Assembly (NCBI RefSeq): GCF_027923555.1
Contig: NZ_AP025523.1
Location: 744,001 to 808,000, forward strand
Reading direction: 5' to 3'
Length of the DNA: 64,000 nucleotides
DNA from: Vulcanimicrobium alpinum
GTDB taxonomy: Bacteria > Vulcanimicrobiota > Vulcanimicrobiia > Vulcanimicrobiales > Vulcanimicrobiaceae
Under the pieces are notes generated by a model. The model was given only the letters and a program-made list of their open reading frames with translations. It ran no database searches and was not told the origin of the DNA. The translations under genes were made by a program, and so were the position numbers. Position 1 is the stretch's first letter; each line of letters starts with the position of its first letter. Below are positions 2,378 to 51,691 of this stretch, one piece after another.

Positions 2378-3199
2378 TTAGCGGGACGGGTTGTAGCCGC
2401 CGCTGACGTAGCCGCCAAGGTCGAGGGTGACGTAGCGGTAGCCGGCGGCGCGGACGCCGGCGACGATGCCGTCGCGGATCGCGGGATCGGCGAGTGCGGC
2501 GACGTCGGCGGGGGGGACTTCGATGCGCGCGATCTCGCCGTGGTGCCGGACGCGGCAGGCGCGGAACCCAGCGTCGTGGATCGTCTGTTCCGCGCGATCC
2601 ACCTGACGCAGGAGTTCCAGCGTGATCGGTGTGCCGTACGGGAAGCGCGACGAGAGGCACGCCAGCGCAGGCTTGTCCCACACCGCCAGCCCCAGCCGCT
2701 GCGCGAGCGCGCGCACGTCGGCTTTGCGCAGGCCGGCGTCGTAGAGAGGGCTGCGTACGTCGTGTTCGCGTGCAGCCTTGCGTCCCGGCCGCCAATCGCC
2801 TTCGTCGTCGCGATTGTAGCCGTCGACGATGTGCGGGATGCCGCGTTCGCGGGCAATCGCGGCGAGCTTTTCGTAGAGTTCCGATTTGCAGAAGTAGCAG
2901 CGATCCACGGGATTCGCGGCATACGACGGGTCGTGCAGTTCGCGCGTCTCGATGACCTCGTGCCGGGCGTCGATCGCCGCGGCGAAGCCGACCGCGCCGG
3001 CGTACTCGCGCTCGGCGAGCGACTCGCTGCGCGCGGTGATACCGACGGCGCGTTCGCCGAGCTCCTGCGAGGCGACGTGCAGGACGAGCGCCGAGTCGAC
3101 GCCGCCGGAGAACGCGACGAGCACGCTGCCGAGCTCGCGGAAGATCGCGCGCAAGCGCGCTTCTTTCAGGTCCAGGGTTTCGGTCGTCAGGTCGATCAC
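2378..3199 (-). CDS. larE: LarE, ATP-dependent sacrificial sulfur transferase
   Basis: LarE donates sulfur to pyridinium-3,5-dicarboxylate mononucleotide in building the nickel-pincer nucleotide cofactor. In the classical enzyme the sulfur comes from its own cysteine. The 273-residue protein has the PP-loop SGGVDS at residues 31-36, a CYFC pair at 101-104 and Cys181 in the ACLSSRFPYGTPIT motif, which matches the sacrificial cysteine. A further Cys215 leaves open a cluster-dependent variant. The start overlaps the end of larC by four bases (ATGA). An IS abuts the 3' end, but the TAA stop lies inside the IS target duplication, so the reading frame is intact. Confidence 0.92.
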   Translation of the reverse strand: MIDLTTETLDLKEARLRAIFRELGSVLVAFSGGVDSALVLHVASQELGERAVGITARSESLAEREYAGAVGFAAAIDARHEVIETRELHDPSYAANPVDRCYFCKSELYEKLAAIARERGIPHIVDGYNRDDEGDWRPGRKAAREHDVRSPLYDAGLRKADVRALAQRLGLAVWDKPALACLSSRFPYGTPITLELLRQVDRAEQTIHDAGFRACRVRHHGEIARIEVPPADVAALADPAIRDGIVAGVRAAGYRYVTLDLGGYVSGGYNPSR

Positions 3200-4428
3200 T
3201 TCTCGGAGTCTCTTTGGATGGCGGCGTCGACGACGCGGGCCACCTCGGGAAGGGGCAGCGCGCGTTCTCGCGCGATGCGCAGCAGGTCGTCGTATTCGGC
3301 GCGGGCGCGGCCGCGGCCGTTTCCCGCGACGGCTTTGACGCGCACCGGGCCATACTGCGTTGCGACCGTCGTGACGGTGCGCTCGAGGACGCGGCGCCGT
3401 TCAGTGCGCACGCGCACGCCGATCGTCGTCGTCTCGTGCAGCATTGCGCGGGCGACCGCATCTTCGTCGCTTGGAACAGCGATGGCCGAGAGCGTGATCG
3501 CCGGGCGCCCTTTCTTCATCGTGATCGGCGTCAGCCAGACGTCGAGCGCGCCCGCCGCGAAGAGCCGCTCCATCGCGAGCTCGTAGTGCTGCGGGAGCAT
3601 GTCGTCGATGTTCGCTTCGAGGATCACGACATCGCTCACGTCCGCCGAGACGGCCGCCCGCGTGCCGACGGTGACGCGCGTAACGTTGGGGATCGAGAAA
3701 TCGCTCGTCCCGGCGCCGTAGCCGATTCGCTCCGGCACCATCGCCGGACGCGCGCCCGGCGTCGCGAGCGTGGTGAGAATCGCGGCCGCGGTGGTGGTGA
3801 CGAGTTCGCCGTCCACGTCGACCGGACGCGTCGGCCACCCGCGCAGCAGGTCCGCCGTCGCCGGCGGCGGGTTGGGATAGAGACCGTGCTGCATGCGGAT
3901 CCAGCCGTTGCCGATCGGGAACGGCGAGACGCGCAGTTCGTCGATTTCCAGCAAGTCGAGCGCGACGCAGGTTGCGGCGACGTCGAGGATCGCGTCGACC
4001 TGCCCGATCTCGTGAAAGTGAATGGCGTCGATGTCGACACCGTGGACACGCGCCTCGGCTTCGCCGAGCCGCCGGTAGATCGCGACCGCGCGCTCTCGCT
4101 GGCGCGGGCTGAGCGCACTGCGCTCGACGATCGCCAGCACGTCGGCGAGGGTGCGGCGCGGACCGTGCGCGTGGCGATGACCGTGCGCTGCGTCGTGCGG
4201 ATGATGATGGTGCTCGGCGTCGCCATCCTCGCCGGGGACGACGAGGGCGGCGTACGTTGCAGCGATCCCCCGTTTCACGACGCGCCGCGGCGCAAACGTC
4301 CAGCCGTCGGCGACGACGCCGCGCAGCGCGCGCTCGAGTTCCGCGCGGTCGGCGCCGGCGTCGAGAAACGCGGCGAGCAGCATGTCGCCCGCCGCGCCGC
4401 CGATCATCTCGACGTAGGCGACGTTCAT
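3196..4428 (-). CDS. larC: LarC, nickel insertion protein for the nickel-pincer cofactor
   Basis: LarC is the CTP-dependent nickel insertase that completes the nickel-pincer nucleotide. The 410-residue protein starts with the family motif around EMIGGAAGDMLLAAFLDAGA and has a histidine-rich loop (HHHHPHD, then HGHRHAHG) near residues 73-89, a likely nickel-binding segment. A DAIHFHEIGQVDAILD segment lies near residue 134. It is one continuous frame, whereas the founding Lactobacillus plantarum gene is split into larC1 and larC2 and needs a programmed frameshift. It overlaps larB upstream and larE downstream by four bases each, so the three genes form one translationally coupled operon. Confidence 0.93.
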   Translation of the reverse strand: MNVAYVEMIGGAAGDMLLAAFLDAGADRAELERALRGVVADGWTFAPRRVVKRGIAATYAALVVPGEDGDAEHHHHPHDAAHGHRHAHGPRRTLADVLAIVERSALSPRQRERAVAIYRRLGEAEARVHGVDIDAIHFHEIGQVDAILDVAATCVALDLLEIDELRVSPFPIGNGWIRMQHGLYPNPPPATADLLRGWPTRPVDVDGELVTTTAAAILTTLATPGARPAMVPERIGYGAGTSDFSIPNVTRVTVGTRAAVSADVSDVVILEANIDDMLPQHYELAMERLFAAGALDVWLTPITMKKGRPAITLSAIAVPSDEDAVARAMLHETTTIGVRVRTERRRVLERTVTTVATQYGPVRVKAVAGNGRGRARAEYDDLLRIARERALPLPEVARVVDAAIQRDSEK

Positions 4429-5081
4429 CGTGATGCGGCCGCGACGATCTTGTGCGCCATCGCCGCGGCGCCGAACCCGTTGTCGATGTTCACCACGGCG
4501 ATCCCGGGCGCGCAGGCGTTGAGCATCCCGAGCAGCGCCGCGAGCCCGTCGAACGCGGCGCCGTAGCCGATGCTGGTGGGGACCGCGATCACCGGCGCCC
4601 GCACGAGTCCGGCGACGACGCTGGGCAGCGCGCCCTCCATCCCGGCGACGACGATCAGCGCGCGGCAGCGTTCGATGTCGCCCAGCGCGTCGAAGAGCCG
4701 ATGGATCCCGGCGACGCCGACGTCGGTCGCGCGAATCGCGTCGTGGCCGAACGCGTCGACGCAGAACGCGGCCTCGTCGGCGATCGGGAGATCGGAGGTG
4801 CCGGCGCAGACGATCCCGATCCGCTCCCCCGTCCGCGGCAGCGCGCCGCGACGCAGCGTCCCCGAGCCGGTGTCGACGACGGCATCCGTATACGCGGCCG
4901 CGAGCGCGACACGCTGATCGGCCGGGATGCGCGTCGCCAGCGCAAACCCGGTGCGCGCGTAGAGCGCGCCGACCAGCGCGATGTTCTGCTCGAGCGTTTT
5001 CCCGGCGGCATAGATGACCTCGGGGACGCCGGTGCGGCCGCGCCGCTCGAGGTCGAGCTGCGCGACGGACGACGGATCCAT
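4425..5081 (-). CDS. larB: LarB, nicotinic acid adenine dinucleotide carboxylase/hydrolase
   Basis: First enzyme of nickel-pincer cofactor synthesis: it carboxylates the pyridinium ring of NaAD and hydrolyses the phosphoanhydride. The 218-residue protein is PurE-like in its C-terminal half. Recognisable segments are GVPEVIYAAGKT near residue 18, GIVCAGTSDLPIADEAA near 89, GVAGIHRLFDAL near 122 and VVAGMEGALPSVVAGL near 143. It heads the larB-larC-larE operon with four-base overlaps. No lactate racemase (larA) is in the window, so the cofactor user must lie elsewhere. No promoter stands out in the 88 bases separating it from the divergent Tat-protein gene. Confidence 0.93.
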   Translation of the reverse strand: MDPSSVAQLDLERRGRTGVPEVIYAAGKTLEQNIALVGALYARTGFALATRIPADQRVALAAAYTDAVVDTGSGTLRRGALPRTGERIGIVCAGTSDLPIADEAAFCVDAFGHDAIRATDVGVAGIHRLFDALGDIERCRALIVVAGMEGALPSVVAGLVRAPVIAVPTSIGYGAAFDGLAALLGMLNACAPGIAVVNIDNGFGAAAMAHKIVAAASR

Positions 5082-45052: not shown

Positions 45053-45892
45053 GTGAATCGTCCGACACCGGTCAATCCCGACGAGGTCGAAGAGGTCGAG
45101 AAGCGGCAGCGTCCGCGCTCGGCGGTCATCTTCGAGACGATCCGGCGCGAAGGCGAGGACGATTTCGAACGCACGACGCCTGCGCTGTTCTGGTCGGCGA
45201 TCGCCGCGGGCGGATCGATGACGTTCTCGATGGTGACGATGGGCGCGATCCAATCGATGCTCCCCGATGCGCCGTGGCGCCATCTCGTCGCTTCGTTCGG
45301 CTACACGATCGGATTTCTGATCGTGATCCTCGGCCGCCAGCAGCTCTTCACCGAGAACACGCTCACGCCGCTGCTCCCGATCTTCTATCAGCCGCGCCGC
45401 TGGAAATTCCGTCAACTGCTGCGATTGTGGAGCGTGATTCTCGGCGGCAACCTGCTGGCGGCGCTGGCAACCGCCGCATTCGTCGCGTTCAGCGGCGCGT
45501 TTCCCGATGCGATGCAGCGTGCGTTCGACGAACTCGCGCGCGCCGCCGTCGGACACCCGTTCCTCGTGCTGTTCGCAAAGGGTATCTTCGCGGGCTGGCT
45601 GATCGCGCTGATGGTGTGGCTGCTCCCGCTGGCCGAGGGTGCCGCCGTCTTCGTCATCGTGATCCTGACCTACGTCGTCGCGGCCGCGGAGTTCGGCCAC
45701 ATCATCGCCGGGTCGGTCGAGGCGTTTTACGGGGCGTGGCGCGGTCTGTTCGGGTGGGGCGATGTCGTCGCGTTCATCGTTCCGACCTTGGCGGGGAATT
45801 GCGTCGGCGGCGTGGCGTTCGTCGCGGCGATCTCGACCGCCGAGATCGCATCCGAACGCAAAACGCGCGCTTCTTCGGGGCAGATCACCTAG
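45053..45892 (+). CDS. Formate/nitrite transporter family protein (YfdC-like)
   Basis: A 279-residue membrane protein with six spans of the FNT fold. Recognisable parts are AAGGSMTFSMVTMGAIQSML near residue 50, GRQQLFTENTLTPLLPIFY near 97, LWSVILGGNLLAALATAAFV near 127, the FAKGIFAGWLIALMVWLLPL segment near 179, and AEFGHIIAGSVEAFYG. The acidic, charged N-terminus (VEEVEKRQRPRSA) and overall pattern match the YfdC branch, whose substrate is unknown, rather than FocA or NirC. The GTG start is 20 bases after the glycosyltransferase. The stop shares CTAG with the convergent aquaporin gene. Confidence 0.87.
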   Translation: MNRPTPVNPDEVEEVEKRQRPRSAVIFETIRREGEDDFERTTPALFWSAIAAGGSMTFSMVTMGAIQSMLPDAPWRHLVASFGYTIGFLIVILGRQQLFTENTLTPLLPIFYQPRRWKFRQLLRLWSVILGGNLLAALATAAFVAFSGAFPDAMQRAFDELARAAVGHPFLVLFAKGIFAGWLIALMVWLLPLAEGAAVFVIVILTYVVAAAEFGHIIAGSVEAFYGAWRGLFGWGDVVAFIVPTLAGNCVGGVAFVAAISTAEIASERKTRASSGQIT

Positions 45893-46584
45893 CCGACGGC
45901 GTCACCGCCCGCAAGCGAGGCGTCGCGGGAGCCGGCGAGCGGGAGCAGCCAGGCGAACAGCGCGACCGCGGCCGCGCCGCCCGCGAACTGCGCGACGATG
46001 AAGCCCGGCGCGTCGAGCGGACGGATCCCGGCGAATGTATCGGTGAGCGCGCGCGCGATCGTGACCGCCGGGTTCGCAAACGACGTCGACGGCGTGAACC
46101 AGTACGCTCCTGCGATGTAGGCCGCAACAGCAAACGGCGTCGCCGTCGAACGCACGCGCGAGCACCCGGCGATCACCGCGAGCAGGCCGAACGTCGCAAC
46201 GAACTCGCTCGCAAGCAGCGGCGTGCCGCTGCGCGCGTGATGCGACGCGAACCACGGCGGCAGGCCGAACATCGCGTCGGCGAGCCCGGTCCCGGCCAGC
46301 GCGCCGGCGCATTGCGCGGCGATGAACGCCGGAACGCGCGCGCGGTGCTCGCGGTTTTCCCAGGCGTCGGCGAGCGTCACGGCGGGGTTGAAGTGCGCGC
46401 CGCTGACGGGCCCGAACGCGAGGATGAGCGCGATCAGCGCGCCGGCGGTGGCGATCGCGTTCGCGAGCAGCGCGAGCCCGACGTTCCCGCCGCAGAGCCG
46501 CTGCGCCATGATGCCGGAGCCGACGACGGCCGTCAGCAGCAGCAGGGTCCCGATGAATTCCGCGACCGTCGCGCGGGCGATCAC
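45889..46584 (-). CDS. Aquaporin/aquaglyceroporin (MIP family), arsenic-linked
   Basis: A 231-residue MIP channel with both NPA boxes, HFNPAVTLADAW near residue 63 and FANPAVTIARAL near 180, and six hydrophobic spans. Its GTG start overlaps the arsC stop (GTGA), and it is the last gene of arsI-arsC-aquaporin. In other bacteria an aquaglyceroporin (AqpS) replaces an efflux pump by letting arsenite made by ArsC flow out down its gradient; the same role is inferred here because no ArsB or Acr3 pump is in the operon. Confidence 0.88.
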   Translation of the reverse strand: MIARATVAEFIGTLLLLTAVVGSGIMAQRLCGGNVGLALLANAIATAGALIALILAFGPVSGAHFNPAVTLADAWENREHRARVPAFIAAQCAGALAGTGLADAMFGLPPWFASHHARSGTPLLASEFVATFGLLAVIAGCSRVRSTATPFAVAAYIAGAYWFTPSTSFANPAVTIARALTDTFAGIRPLDAPGFIVAQFAGGAAAVALFAWLLPLAGSRDASLAGGDAVG

Positions 46585-47030
46585 GGAGCGGCCCTCGTGC
46601 GTTCGGCACGCCGTGCGGCGGCCCACGCCTCCACGGTGTCGCGGATCGCATCGCGAATCCGCCGCGTCTGCGCCCGCCGTTCGTCGATCGTTCCGGTCAG
46701 CGCGGAGGGGTCGGGAAACGACCAGTGCTCGCGCCGCCCCTGCGTGGGCACCACGGGACAGCGCTCGCCGTCGCTCTCGGCGCAGACCGTGATCACGTAC
46801 CGGTACGCGCGCCCGGCGATCTCCGGCGCGGAGAGCGGCTTGGCGTACGCGCGCGAGAGGTCGAAGCCGATCTCCGCCATCACGTCGACGACCAGCCGGT
46901 TCATCGCGCCAGCTTCGATCCCGGCGCTGAAGACATCGAAGAGATCGCCCGCCGCCGCGGGCAGAAACGCCTCCGCCATCTGACTGCGGGCGCTGTTGTG
47001 CACGCAGACGAAGAGCACGTTGTCCTTCAT
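46581..47030 (-). CDS. arsC: ArsC, arsenate reductase (low-molecular-weight phosphatase type)
   Basis: Reduces arsenate to arsenite. The 149-residue protein has the phosphatase P-loop VCVHNSARSQMAEAF with Cys9 and Arg15 (CX5R), and two further redox cysteines, Cys83 (TVCAES) and Cys91 (RCPVVP). This is the three-cysteine arrangement of the thioredoxin-coupled pI258 type. DPSALTG includes the usual loop Asp. It begins one base after arsI ends and overlaps the aquaporin gene, so all three form one operon. Confidence 0.93.
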   Translation of the reverse strand: MKDNVLFVCVHNSARSQMAEAFLPAAAGDLFDVFSAGIEAGAMNRLVVDVMAEIGFDLSRAYAKPLSAPEIAGRAYRYVITVCAESDGERCPVVPTQGRREHWSFPDPSALTGTIDERRAQTRRIRDAIRDTVEAWAAARRAERTRAAP

Positions 47031-47031
47031 C

Positions 47032-47427
47032 TCAGGCGCAGCACGCGTCGCCGTCGCGTGTCTCGGTCTCCTCGTGCACGACGTACGTCTCCCAGCGCCG
47101 GCCGTCGGGATCGCTCGCCCACACCTTCGTCTGCTTCGCGTAGCAGCACGTTTCGTCGCGCTCGACGTCGACCGCGAAGCCTTCGCGTTCGAGTCGTGCG
47201 ATCTGCGCGTCGACCGCGTCGGTCGAATCGACGACGATGCCGAAGTGCTCGGCCTCACCGGCGCGCGCCTGCGCATCCAGATCGAGCGCCAGCTCGAGCC
47301 CCGGCTCCTCGGTGACGAACAGCGCATAATCGGGAAGCCGCTTCGCCGGTGCCGCCCCCAGCAGCGTCCCATAGAACGCCACGCTGCGCTCGAGATCCCG
47401 CGTCCCAAGATTGAGATGCATCTTCAT
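47032..47427 (-). CDS. arsI: ArsI, organoarsenical C-As lyase (VOC family, CadI/ArsI)
   Basis: A 131-residue vicinal-oxygen-chelate dioxygenase that breaks the carbon-arsenic bond of trivalent methylarsenicals. The iron ligands are visible as His4 (MHLNLG), His61 (EHFGIV) and Glu113 (RWETYVV). The arsenic-binding cysteine pair is Cys94-Cys95 in RDETCCYAKQTKVWASDPDG, with a second CC at the C-terminus (DACCA), as in ArsI proteins. CadI annotations belong to the same family. Start at 47427 is the family start; a repeat element lies just upstream. First gene of the operon divergent from arsR. Confidence 0.92.
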   Translation of the reverse strand: MKMHLNLGTRDLERSVAFYGTLLGAAPAKRLPDYALFVTEEPGLELALDLDAQARAGEAEHFGIVVDSTDAVDAQIARLEREGFAVDVERDETCCYAKQTKVWASDPDGRRWETYVVHEETETRDGDACCA

Positions 47428-47436
47428 CCGACCGTC

Positions 47437-47465
47437 CCCCGTCACGCTGAGCTTGTCGAAGCGCC
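47437..47465. repeat. Intergenic repeat, copy B
   Basis: Contains GTCACGCTGAGCTTGTCGAAG (47441-47461), the cleanest single-arm copy in the window. It lies between the arsI start and the ars operators. Confidence 0.7.
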
Positions 47466-47493
47466 GCCCAAGCCGACCCCAAACGCGATCAAA

Positions 47494-47574
47494 ACATCGA
47501 CGCTCATCGATATTACGCAAATGCATCGATAAATGTCAATAAACAGAGACCGCAAGACATTGACGTTCATCGAT
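47494..47574. promoter_or_regulatory. ars operator/promoter region with three related boxes
   Basis: Box 1 at 47494-47511 and box 3 at 47557-47574 share ACATYGACGYTCATCGAT with only two differences (ACATCGACGCTCATCGAT and ACATTGACGTTCATCGAT). Box 2 at 47525-47542 is an inverted, looser copy (ATCGATAAATGTCAATAA). They fill the space between arsI and arsR. Winged-helix ArsR repressors bind such paired half-sites. The AT-rich centre probably holds both divergent promoters. Presumed derepression by arsenite. Confidence 0.7.
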
Positions 47575-47594
47575 CACTGGCGTAACATCGAGAG

Positions 47595-47924
47595 GTGCCC
47601 ACGTCCCGCAAACCACGCAGCCGGCGGTCGTCTTGGGATTTCGCCCCCAGTGCGATGCTCTTCAAGGTGCTCGCCGATCCGCACCGCCTGGCGATCCTCG
47701 CGATCCTCGCGCGCAGCGACGAGGATGTCTGCGTCTGCGAGTTCACCGCCGACCTGCCGCTGAACCAGCCTACCGTCTCGCATCATCTGCGGCTGCTGCG
47801 CGAAGCCGACCTCGTGACGGCGGAACGCCGCGGCACGTGGAGCTATTACCGGCTCAAGCCCGGCGTGCGCGCGCGGATCATCGCCGCTCTGCGGCGCGTC
47901 GTCCCCGAGAGCGACGTCGCGTAA
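47595..47924 (+). CDS. arsR: ArsR-family arsenite-responsive repressor
   Basis: A 109-residue winged-helix repressor. The metalloid-binding motif is DVCVCEFTADL (Cys46, Cys48), matching the ELCVCDL motif of ArsR sensors, followed by the recognition helix LNQPTVSHHLRLLREADLV and the wing AERRGTWSYYRLKPG. It should bind the three boxes at 47494-47574 and release them on binding As(III) or Sb(III), opening arsI-arsC-aquaporin and itself. The GTG start has no well-spaced ribosome site, so the exact N-terminus is uncertain. Confidence 0.92.
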   Translation: MPTSRKPRSRRSSWDFAPSAMLFKVLADPHRLAILAILARSDEDVCVCEFTADLPLNQPTVSHHLRLLREADLVTAERRGTWSYYRLKPGVRARIIAALRRVVPESDVA

Positions 47925-49506: not shown

Positions 49507-49530
49507 GTACCATAGGGGGGTAGGGTATCC
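49507..49530. promoter_or_regulatory. Candidate CsoR/RcnR operator
   Basis: TACCATAGGGGGGTAGGGTA contains a G6 tract flanked by TA-rich half-sites, the architecture of CsoR/RcnR-family operators. It lies 21 bases before the sensor gene start, well placed for autoregulation of the sensor-ATPase operon. Confidence 0.65.
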
Positions 49531-49550
49531 GCCCTGCCGAAACGGCGATC

Positions 49551-49826
49551 ATGTCACACACCACTCGCGATCGTGACACGCTGCTGCCTCGGGTCCGGCG
49601 GATCATCGGCCAACTCCAAGCCGTCGAGCGCGCCCTGGAAGAAGAGAAACCGTGCGGCGACGTCTTGCACCTGATGGCCGCCGCGCGCGGCGCGATGAAC
49701 GGCTTGATGGGCCGCGTGCTGGAGGAGCACATCCACGCGCACCTCGGCAACGGCAGCCTATCCCGCGCCGCGCAGACCCGCGCGGCCGACGAGCTGATCG
49801 GCGTCGTCCGCACCTACCTCAAGTGA
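49551..49826 (+). CDS. CsoR/RcnR-family metal-sensing repressor
   Basis: A 91-residue all-helical DUF156 repressor. The ligand positions visible are His3 (MSHTTRD), Cys35 (KPCGDV), His60 and His64 (EEHIHAHLG). This is the His3-Cys35-His60-His64 set of the nickel/cobalt sensor RcnR rather than the Cys-His-Cys of copper-sensing CsoR. RGAMNGLMGRVLEEHIHAHL is typical of the family. It probably binds the G-tract operator just upstream. It overlaps the P-type ATPase start by four bases (GTGA), so sensor and pump are co-expressed. Confidence 0.9.
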   Translation: MSHTTRDRDTLLPRVRRIIGQLQAVERALEEEKPCGDVLHLMAAARGAMNGLMGRVLEEHIHAHLGNGSLSRAAQTRAADELIGVVRTYLK

Positions 49827-51691
49827 GCGACCGCGCTGCGCCCGAGCACGCCGTCGAGCACACCGACCTGATCCGCATCGCGCTGGTCGCGCTCGCCGCT
49901 GCGGCGGTATGGTTCCGCTGGTGGGAGCCGTATCCGCACGTCAGCATCATCGGGATCGTCGCGACGGTCGCCGGAGGCTGGCCGATCTTCGCCGAGGCCT
50001 TCGAGAACTTGCGCGAGCGCACGATGACGATGGAACTCTCGATGACGATCGCGCTCGTGGCGGCGCTCGCGATCGGCGAATTCTTCACCGCGCTCGTCAT
50101 CACGGCGTTTGTCCTTGCCGCCGAAGTCCTCGAAGGCCTGACGGTCGCGCGCGGACGCCACGCGATCCGCGATCTCATCGCCCTGATGCCGCGCGCGGCG
50201 ACCGTGCGCCGCGACGGCATACTGATCGACATCGACGCGTCGGACGTGCGGCCCGGCGACGACGTCGTCGTCAAACCCGGCGCGCTGCTCCCGGTCGACG
50301 GTATCGTGACCGCCGGCCGATCGTTCGTCGACCAGGCCGCGATCGCGGGCGAATCGATGGCAGTAGAAAAGGCCGCCGGCGCCTACGTGTATGCCGGCAC
50401 GATCAACCAGTCCGGGGCGCTCGACGTGCGCGCCGACAAGGTCGGCCGCGACACGAGCTTCGGCAAGATCGTCGAAGCGGTCGAGACGGCGGAACGCTCG
50501 CGCGCACCGGCCCAGCGCCTCGCCGACCGGCTCTCGGGCTACCTCGTCTACTTCGCGCTCGGCGCAGCGGCGCTCACCTACGCGCTCACGCGCGATCCGC
50601 GCTCGACGATCTCGGTGGTGATCGTCGCCGGGGCATGCGGAATCGCCGCCGGGACGCCGCTGGCGATCCTCGGCGCGATCGGCCGCGCCGCGCGCGGCGG
50701 TAGCATCATCAAAGGCGGCCGGTATCTCGAATCGCTCTCCACCGTCGACACGGTGGTGCTCGACAAGACGGGGACGGTGACGTACGGAACGCCGCGCATC
50801 GCACGCATCGCCGCGGCTGCCTCGGGCGAACGCGAACTCCTGCGCATCGCGGCGAGCGTCGAACAGCGCTCGGAGCATCCGCTCGCGAGCGCGATCGTCG
50901 CCCGCGCACGCGAAGACGGGATCGCGCTCGCCGAGCCCGACGACTTCTCGTATGTTCCCGGCCGCGGGATTCGTGCGATCGTCGAAGGCGAGGCCGTCTT
51001 TGTCGGCAACGCGGCGTTCTTTGCCTATCACGCCCTGGCGGTGCCCGTCGATGGCACCGATCCGGGCGCGACGACGGTGCTGGTCGCGCGCGGCACGGAC
51101 GCTCTCGGCACGATCGCGATCGCCGACGTCGTTCGCGATGAAGCGGCCGGCGCGATCGCCGCGCTCGCATCGATGGGAATACGAACGGTGCTCCTGACCG
51201 GCGACGTCCAACGCGTCGCGGAGGCGACGGGCCGCGCGCTCGGCGTCGATGAGATCATTGCGGAGATGCTGCCGGAGCAGAAGAGCGCCTACGTTGCGGA
51301 ACTCGTGCAGAAGGGCCGCACCGTCGCGATGGTCGGCGACGGCATCAACGACGCGCCGGCGCTCGCGGCGGCGACCGTCGGCGTCGCGATGGGATCGGGG
51401 ACCGACGTCGCGCGCGAAAGCGCCGACGTCGTCCTGCTCGGCAATGACCTTGCGCGCTTCGTCGAAACGATCCGCATCGCGCGGCGGACGCGCGCGATCG
51501 TGATGCAGAACTTCGCCGGCACGCTCGCCGTCGACTCGGTCGGCATCCTGCTCGCGGGCTTCGGCCTGCTGAACCCGCTGCTGGCGGCGTTCATCCACGT
51601 CGCCTCGGAGCTCACGTTCATCTTGAACTCGACCCGCATGCTGCCGGGGCGCGCGCCCAGCCCCGTCGCTCAGAGCTCGTCGAAGGGCTGA
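49823..51691 (+). CDS. P1B-type heavy-metal ATPase with unusual membrane motif
   Basis: A 622-residue cation pump without an N-terminal HMA domain. It has the actuator AGESMAV near 175, phosphorylation site DKTGT near 313, the SEHPLASA nucleotide-domain motif near 351 and hinge GDGINDAPAL near 506. The transport-site helix before the DKTGT domain reads AGACGIAAGTPLAILGAIGR. The usual CPC, SPC, CPH or TPC triad is absent; a single Cys in ACG takes its place. With an RcnR-like sensor in front, nickel or cobalt export is a reasonable guess. The last codons (QSSSKG) are encoded by an intergenic palindrome that has run into the gene. Confidence 0.88.
   Translation: MSDRAAPEHAVEHTDLIRIALVALAAAAVWFRWWEPYPHVSIIGIVATVAGGWPIFAEAFENLRERTMTMELSMTIALVAALAIGEFFTALVITAFVLAAEVLEGLTVARGRHAIRDLIALMPRAATVRRDGILIDIDASDVRPGDDVVVKPGALLPVDGIVTAGRSFVDQAAIAGESMAVEKAAGAYVYAGTINQSGALDVRADKVGRDTSFGKIVEAVETAERSRAPAQRLADRLSGYLVYFALGAAALTYALTRDPRSTISVVIVAGACGIAAGTPLAILGAIGRAARGGSIIKGGRYLESLSTVDTVVLDKTGTVTYGTPRIARIAAAASGERELLRIAASVEQRSEHPLASAIVARAREDGIALAEPDDFSYVPGRGIRAIVEGEAVFVGNAAFFAYHALAVPVDGTDPGATTVLVARGTDALGTIAIADVVRDEAAGAIAALASMGIRTVLLTGDVQRVAEATGRALGVDEIIAEMLPEQKSAYVAELVQKGRTVAMVGDGINDAPALAAATVGVAMGSGTDVARESADVVLLGNDLARFVETIRIARRTRAIVMQNFAGTLAVDSVGILLAGFGLLNPLLAAFIHVASELTFILNSTRMLPGRAPSPVAQSSSKG

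Follow-up and report, generated by a model that had tools for sequence, protein, structure and literature searches.

The window, the whole stretch of 64,000 nucleotides analysed here (positions 744,001 to 808,000 of contig NZ_AP025523.1), was taken from Vulcanimicrobium alpinum and contains a two-gene operon in which the ORF of a DUF156 repressor overlaps that of a P1B-type ATPase by 4 bp, with the GTGA at 49823–49826 combining the repressor stop with the ATPase start. The following features, all on the plus strand, were identified.

49512–49528, plus strand: putative operator, ATAGGGGGGTAGGGTAT, 22 bp 5' of the repressor start
49551–49826, plus strand: CsoR/RcnR-family (DUF156) repressor, 91 aa (PF02583, 8e-21 in Pfam), with the DmeR/RcnR-type ligand set H3-C35-H60-H64
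49823–51691, plus strand: P1B-type heavy-metal ATPase, 622 aa, GTG start at 49823 (TIGR01525, 2e-159; tree; AF2 model)
50630–50641, plus strand: TM4 GACG, residues 270–273, where xPx is usual (sequence; family rows)
50762–50776, plus strand: DKTGT phosphorylation motif, residues 314–318 (sequence)
51533–51535, plus strand: D571 in TM5, invariant in the GAC family described below (transmembrane column comparison)
51596–51628, plus strand: TM6 H592-V-A-S-E596-(X)5-N602, in the register of the P1B-4 HEGGT(X)5N motif (transmembrane column comparison)

The CPx motif is thought to define the P1B class, and a handful of membrane residues near it is used to predict which metal a pump carries. The ATPase of the window scored over the cut-off of the P1B profile TIGR01525, and all the catalytic motifs claimed for it in the original prediction were found, with DKTGT at residue 314, HP at 352, and GDGIND at 505. 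Its A-domain carries AGE where TGE is usual, a departure that had gone unmentioned; the invariant G176 and E177 are retained, and the usual P180 is replaced by Ala. TM4 reads VAGACGIAAGTP, with GACGIAAGTP, the string that had been said to replace xPC/CPx, located exactly at residues 270–279, and C272 is the sole cysteine among the 622 residues. A sequencing or reading error in TM4 was ruled out because 16 homologous rows carry the same motif. No HMA domain was found with Pfam, in agreement with the earlier claim that an N-terminal metal-binding domain is absent. In the AF2 model (pLDDT 86.7), TM4 nonetheless has a helix break at residues 269–271, and in structure searches the model resembled CopA, which is also the top PDB match. 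On the strength of the profile and the tree, the protein was filed as P1B-like and as an exception to the TM4 motif.

At least 17 distinct proteins share this TM4 (hereafter, the GAC family), and they are spread over several phyla and plasmids: the window, three genomes of its phylum, five plasmids, at least three genome contigs, one contig of a viral set, and further genomes. The relatives are 54–67% identical, several have His-rich N-terminal tails, and G270-A271-C272 is invariant in all 16 family rows that were usable in the tree. The family is sparse. Scoring of the top candidates, which gives rough frequencies, found it in at least 4 of 149 genomes of the window's phylum; for the class that includes L029 the count was at least 2 of 385 genomes, and for the Acidobacteria, the phylum to which L028 belongs, at least 4 of 247. 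The copy in Methylobacterium extorquens AM1 (L024, 5827–7689) lies just 5' of an IS21 element and is probably non-functional, because its last transmembrane helix is missing. We also noted P1B-like ATPases on a Shinella plasmid (L131) and at L082 with a TM4 that is odder still (SPA; CAD).

In a first tree, from which the N-terminus, the TM4 motif, and the TM6 columns were excluded, the GAC family formed one clade (SH-aLRT 100). A more careful tree, with the TM5 site excluded as well and six P1B-5 rows added, again recovered one clade (100/100), apart from the P1B-1, P1B-2/4, P1B-5, CSC-type, and HN-type groups. Because the clade persists without the motif columns, a motif artefact was ruled out as the source of the clustering. 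The CSC-type group is most likely the sister clade (94/93). In AU tests, a joint clade with P1B-4 was rejected (p-AU 1e-5), which rules out P1B-4 membership of the window ATPase, and joint clades with P1B-5 (p-AU 0.25) or with P1B-1 (p-AU 0.12) were not rejected. The proposal of an unusual P1B subgroup is thus borne out by the clade, by the P1B-4 test, and by the private ligand set described below, and the trees keep the family separate from the sampled P1B-1, -2, -4, and -5 pumps. The best reading is that the window pump belongs to a branch distinct from these sampled subgroups, one that may equal the named P1B-6 or P1B-7, for which subgroup motifs were reportedly given by Smith et al. 2014. 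P1B-6 and P1B-7 have been named yet are untested (PMC4932525, PMC7558416). Our literature search found no paper on the window ATPase, and the GAC branch is apparently uncharacterised. The CSC-type clade (L007, L030, L032, L034, L121, L122, L132, and L133), whose TM4 carries CSC where CPC is usual and whose TM6 mostly reads QSLPD, is apparently little described as well.

When the transmembrane columns were compared by group, the GAC family showed a private residue set of C272, D571, H592, and E596. Position 571 was Asp in all 15 family rows having it; elsewhere, 31 of 33 P1B-1 rows had Asn there, 13 of 13 P1B-2 rows had Lys, and P1B-4 had an apolar residue. At position 592, the GAC family and P1B-4 shared His, with Met found in P1B-1, Asp in P1B-2, and Gln in P1B-5, and position 596 was Glu in the family, Asp in the CSC-type group and P1B-5, and Thr in P1B-4. 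As judged from these columns, the four residues may form one metal site, and such ligands, harder than those of Cu(I) pumps, would fit a divalent ion. The window ATPase has neither the CPC, TM5 Asn, and TM6 Met and Ser-Ser of P1B-1 (Cu/Ag) nor, in a comparison with six P1B-5 rows, the TPCP in TM4 and QExxD in TM6 of P1B-5 (Ni/Fe), and it has GAC, D571, and H592 in place of the CPC, TM5 Lys, and TM6 Asp of P1B-2 (Zn/Cd/Pb). The SPC in TM4 and complete HEGGT(X)5N in TM6 that mark P1B-4 (Co/Zn/Fe) are likewise absent. In that subgroup, the His of HEGGT(X)5N and the TM4 Cys have been reported to be critical (PMC10800456). The window ATPase resembles the P1B-4 pumps CzcP and CoaT in retaining this Cys and the TM6 His and Asn of the motif, but SPC is changed to GAC, the final Thr to Glu, and an Asp is added in TM5. 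Like the P1B-5 pump Nia of Sinorhizobium meliloti (Ni/Fe), it has an acidic side chain at position five of the TM6 motif, and a VIT gene is a neighbour in one case each of P1B-5 and the GAC family; however, Nia has TPCP and QExxD, and the two groups form separate clades, each with 100/100. The CSC-type ATPases (ACSC...SLPD) similarly lack the TM4 proline, but they have CSC in place of GAC, Asn in place of D571, mostly Gln in place of H592, and Asp in place of E596. A copper pump under a CsoR-type regulator could be argued for from general P1B-1 similarity, from the top match to CopA, and from the joint clade with P1B-1 that the AU test did not reject, but it is very improbable, given that the family has no CPC, TM5 Asn, or TM6 Met and that residue 64 of the repressor is His, where CsoR has Cys.

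The co-translated repressor carries the His3-Cys35-His60-His64 set attributed to it in the original prediction, together with Ser at position 2. A DUF156 repressor lies directly 5' of the ATPase in 10 of the 17 family members, including the window, and all ten of these repressors (the window and 9/9 relatives) have this ligand set, with the FrmR set found in none. The same residues occur in RcnR and in two dmeR-type repressors; four FrmRs have Pro2 and Thr64. The window repressor has P34 and A63 in place of E34 and E63, both of which are also missing from one dmeR-type relative. These two Glu residues complete the octahedral site of RcnR (PMC7055735). The window repressor is therefore not RcnR in the strict sense, as its score of 61 bits, against an RcnR equivalog cut-off of 138, also indicates. 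The FrmR profile gave a higher score of 83 bits, again under the cut-off, and dmeR-type repressors score on the two profiles in the same way; moreover, FrmR combines Pro2 with Cys35 and adjoins frm genes, whereas the window repressor has Ser2 and adjoins the ATPase. A tree built from 92 repressor columns lacked the power to place it. Among solved structures, FrmR E64H (5lcy) is the closest to it, and in cells both Zn and Co elicit a response from FrmR with only His64 introduced (PMC5016687). By its ligand fingerprint, the window repressor is thus a Ni/Co-type sensor, for which Zn is also possible.

The operon can accordingly be compared with two known systems. With dmeRF, which consists of DmeR and the CDF exporter DmeF, it shares a repressor-first two-gene layout and a repressor that is 47–52% identical, has the same ligand set, and in one case also has Pro34; it differs in that its exporter is an ATPase rather than a CDF protein. 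With rcnRA of Escherichia coli, it shares the ligand set and an operator with a G6 tract, but there the exporter is RcnA (NicO), the repressor has E34 and E63, and the operator flanks differ, those of the window being nearer to frmR. The missing Glu residues and the zinc and cobalt response of FrmR E64H also fit a Co(II)/Zn(II) pump governed by a four-coordinate repressor site that works as in FrmR E64H. We consider this improbable, since D571 stands where all 13 sampled P1B-2 zinc pumps have Lys and H592 where they have Asp, and a dmeR-type relative lacks both Glu residues as well.

The G6 tract predicted in the operator is present in ATAGGGGGGTAGGGTAT, a string whose chance expectation in the window is 0. 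Its core, TAGGGGGGTA, has exactly one copy across the 3.5-Mb genome. Ahead of the repressor genes at L023, L006, and L024 (there on the reverse strand), as well as ahead of E. coli frmR, we found this core or one much like it. The G tract is shorter or absent at L004, L005, L022, L107, L117, and L118. The match to the frmR core and the higher FrmR score, like the database name, would suit a formaldehyde-responsive operon, which is nevertheless the least probable of the explanations considered here: both profile scores are under their cut-offs, no frmA-like gene is adjacent, and formaldehyde sensing by FrmR needs Pro2 (PMC5016687), where the window repressor has Ser. On the absence of Pro2 and the presence of His64, we ruled this explanation out.

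The gene neighbourhoods of the relatives bear on the metal. RcnA is a Ni/Co exporter and DmeF a Co/Ni exporter. On the M. extorquens plasmid p1META1, a DUF1289 gene on the opposite strand is followed by the repressor and the family ATPase. In Methylobacterium aquaticum, a close relative of this repressor lies directly 5' of an rcnA homologue (Pfam NicO, 2.5e-41; 68–70% identity with RcnA of E. coli), and the DUF1289 gene is again found upstream. As the same kind of repressor and the same DUF1289 gene flank either exporter, the family ATPase and rcnA appear to have been swapped behind one regulator, which is the strongest evidence for Ni/Co. In addition, an annotated plasmid repressor outside the family, 52% identical to the window repressor, adjoins dmeF, and Novosphingobium and Rhodanobacter plasmids carry czc-type efflux genes next to the operon. 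The seven of the 17 members without a DUF156 repressor count against the Ni/Co reading. One of them lies 3' of an Rrf2 regulator gene (L027), another between ferric reductase and VIT1 genes (L025), and a further one 3' of a two-component system. A P1B-5 pump likewise lies 5' of a VIT gene, and these neighbours, with the grouping with P1B-5 that the AU test did not reject, make a real rival of an Fe(II) (or Fe/Mn) efflux pump, akin in function to P1B-5 Nia or P1B-4 PfeT, that a Ni/Co sensor would have taken over in certain lineages. We regard this as unlikely, though less so than a Co(II)/Zn(II) pump, because 10 of the 17 members, including the window, are behind HCHH sensors rather than iron sensors. 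As a separate observation, the P1B-5 and GAC-type ATPases of L025 and L156 occur on alphaproteobacterial plasmids in a similar context, with a VIT-family gene 3' of each.

Taken on sequence evidence, the operon is probably an efflux system derepressed by Ni(II)/Co(II). Without metal, a DmeR/RcnR-type tetramer on the TA-G6-TA operator would repress its own gene and the co-translated ATPase. Rising Ni(II) or Co(II) would lift this repression by binding to the repressor at His3, Cys35, His60, His64, and the amine of its N-terminus. The ATPase, possibly aided by a short N-terminal tail that contains His, would move the cytosolic ion to a membrane site made up of Cys272 (TM4), Asp571 (TM5), and His592 and Glu596 (TM6), and export it in a normal P-type cycle via phospho-Asp314. 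We infer this metal and transport direction from the ligand set in all ten adjacent repressors, the dmeF neighbour, the rcnA swap, the genomic uniqueness of the operator core, the czc neighbours, and the His-rich tails of relatives, as well as from H592 and N602, which match P1B-4 (Co), and E596, which stands where P1B-5 (Ni/Fe) has Asp. The two missing Glu residues, the response of FrmR His64 to Zn and Co, and the presence of other candidate exporters weigh against it. The nickel or cobalt originally suggested therefore stands in part, with Fe(II) or Zn(II) also admitted. The wider proposition, to which we give somewhat less than an even chance, is that of a separate P1B subgroup with a Cys-Asp-His-Glu site that has lost the TM4 proline and the first ligand, exports Ni(II)/Co(II) under DmeR/RcnR-type control, and has spread on plasmids across phyla. 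To our knowledge, P1B-4 pumps and Nia are the only candidates so far for a dedicated Ni/Co branch of P1B pumps; if the proposition is true, the GAC clade would supply one. A conserved clade of pumps that have dispensed with the TM4 proline and the first ligand, and that often come with a Ni/Co-type sensor of their own, would be a clean natural test of what determines selectivity.

The genome is a single contig in which the window ATPase is the sole close P1B match, the other ATPase match being a KdpB-like sequence. NicO-like and CDF proteins are also encoded, and the window ATPase is thus not the sole candidate exporter. The nickel-cofactor genes that had been placed in the same segment are real (LarC, 3196–4428, and a LarB-like AIRC protein, 4425–5081, both on the minus strand), but they belong to nickel-pincer synthesis 44 kb from the operon, and the link was rejected as mere co-residence. 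A probable arsenic cluster occupies 45889–47924, with genes for an aquaporin-type MIP, an ArsC-like LMW phosphatase, and a glyoxalase-family protein on the minus strand and, on the plus strand, one for an ArsR-type regulator.
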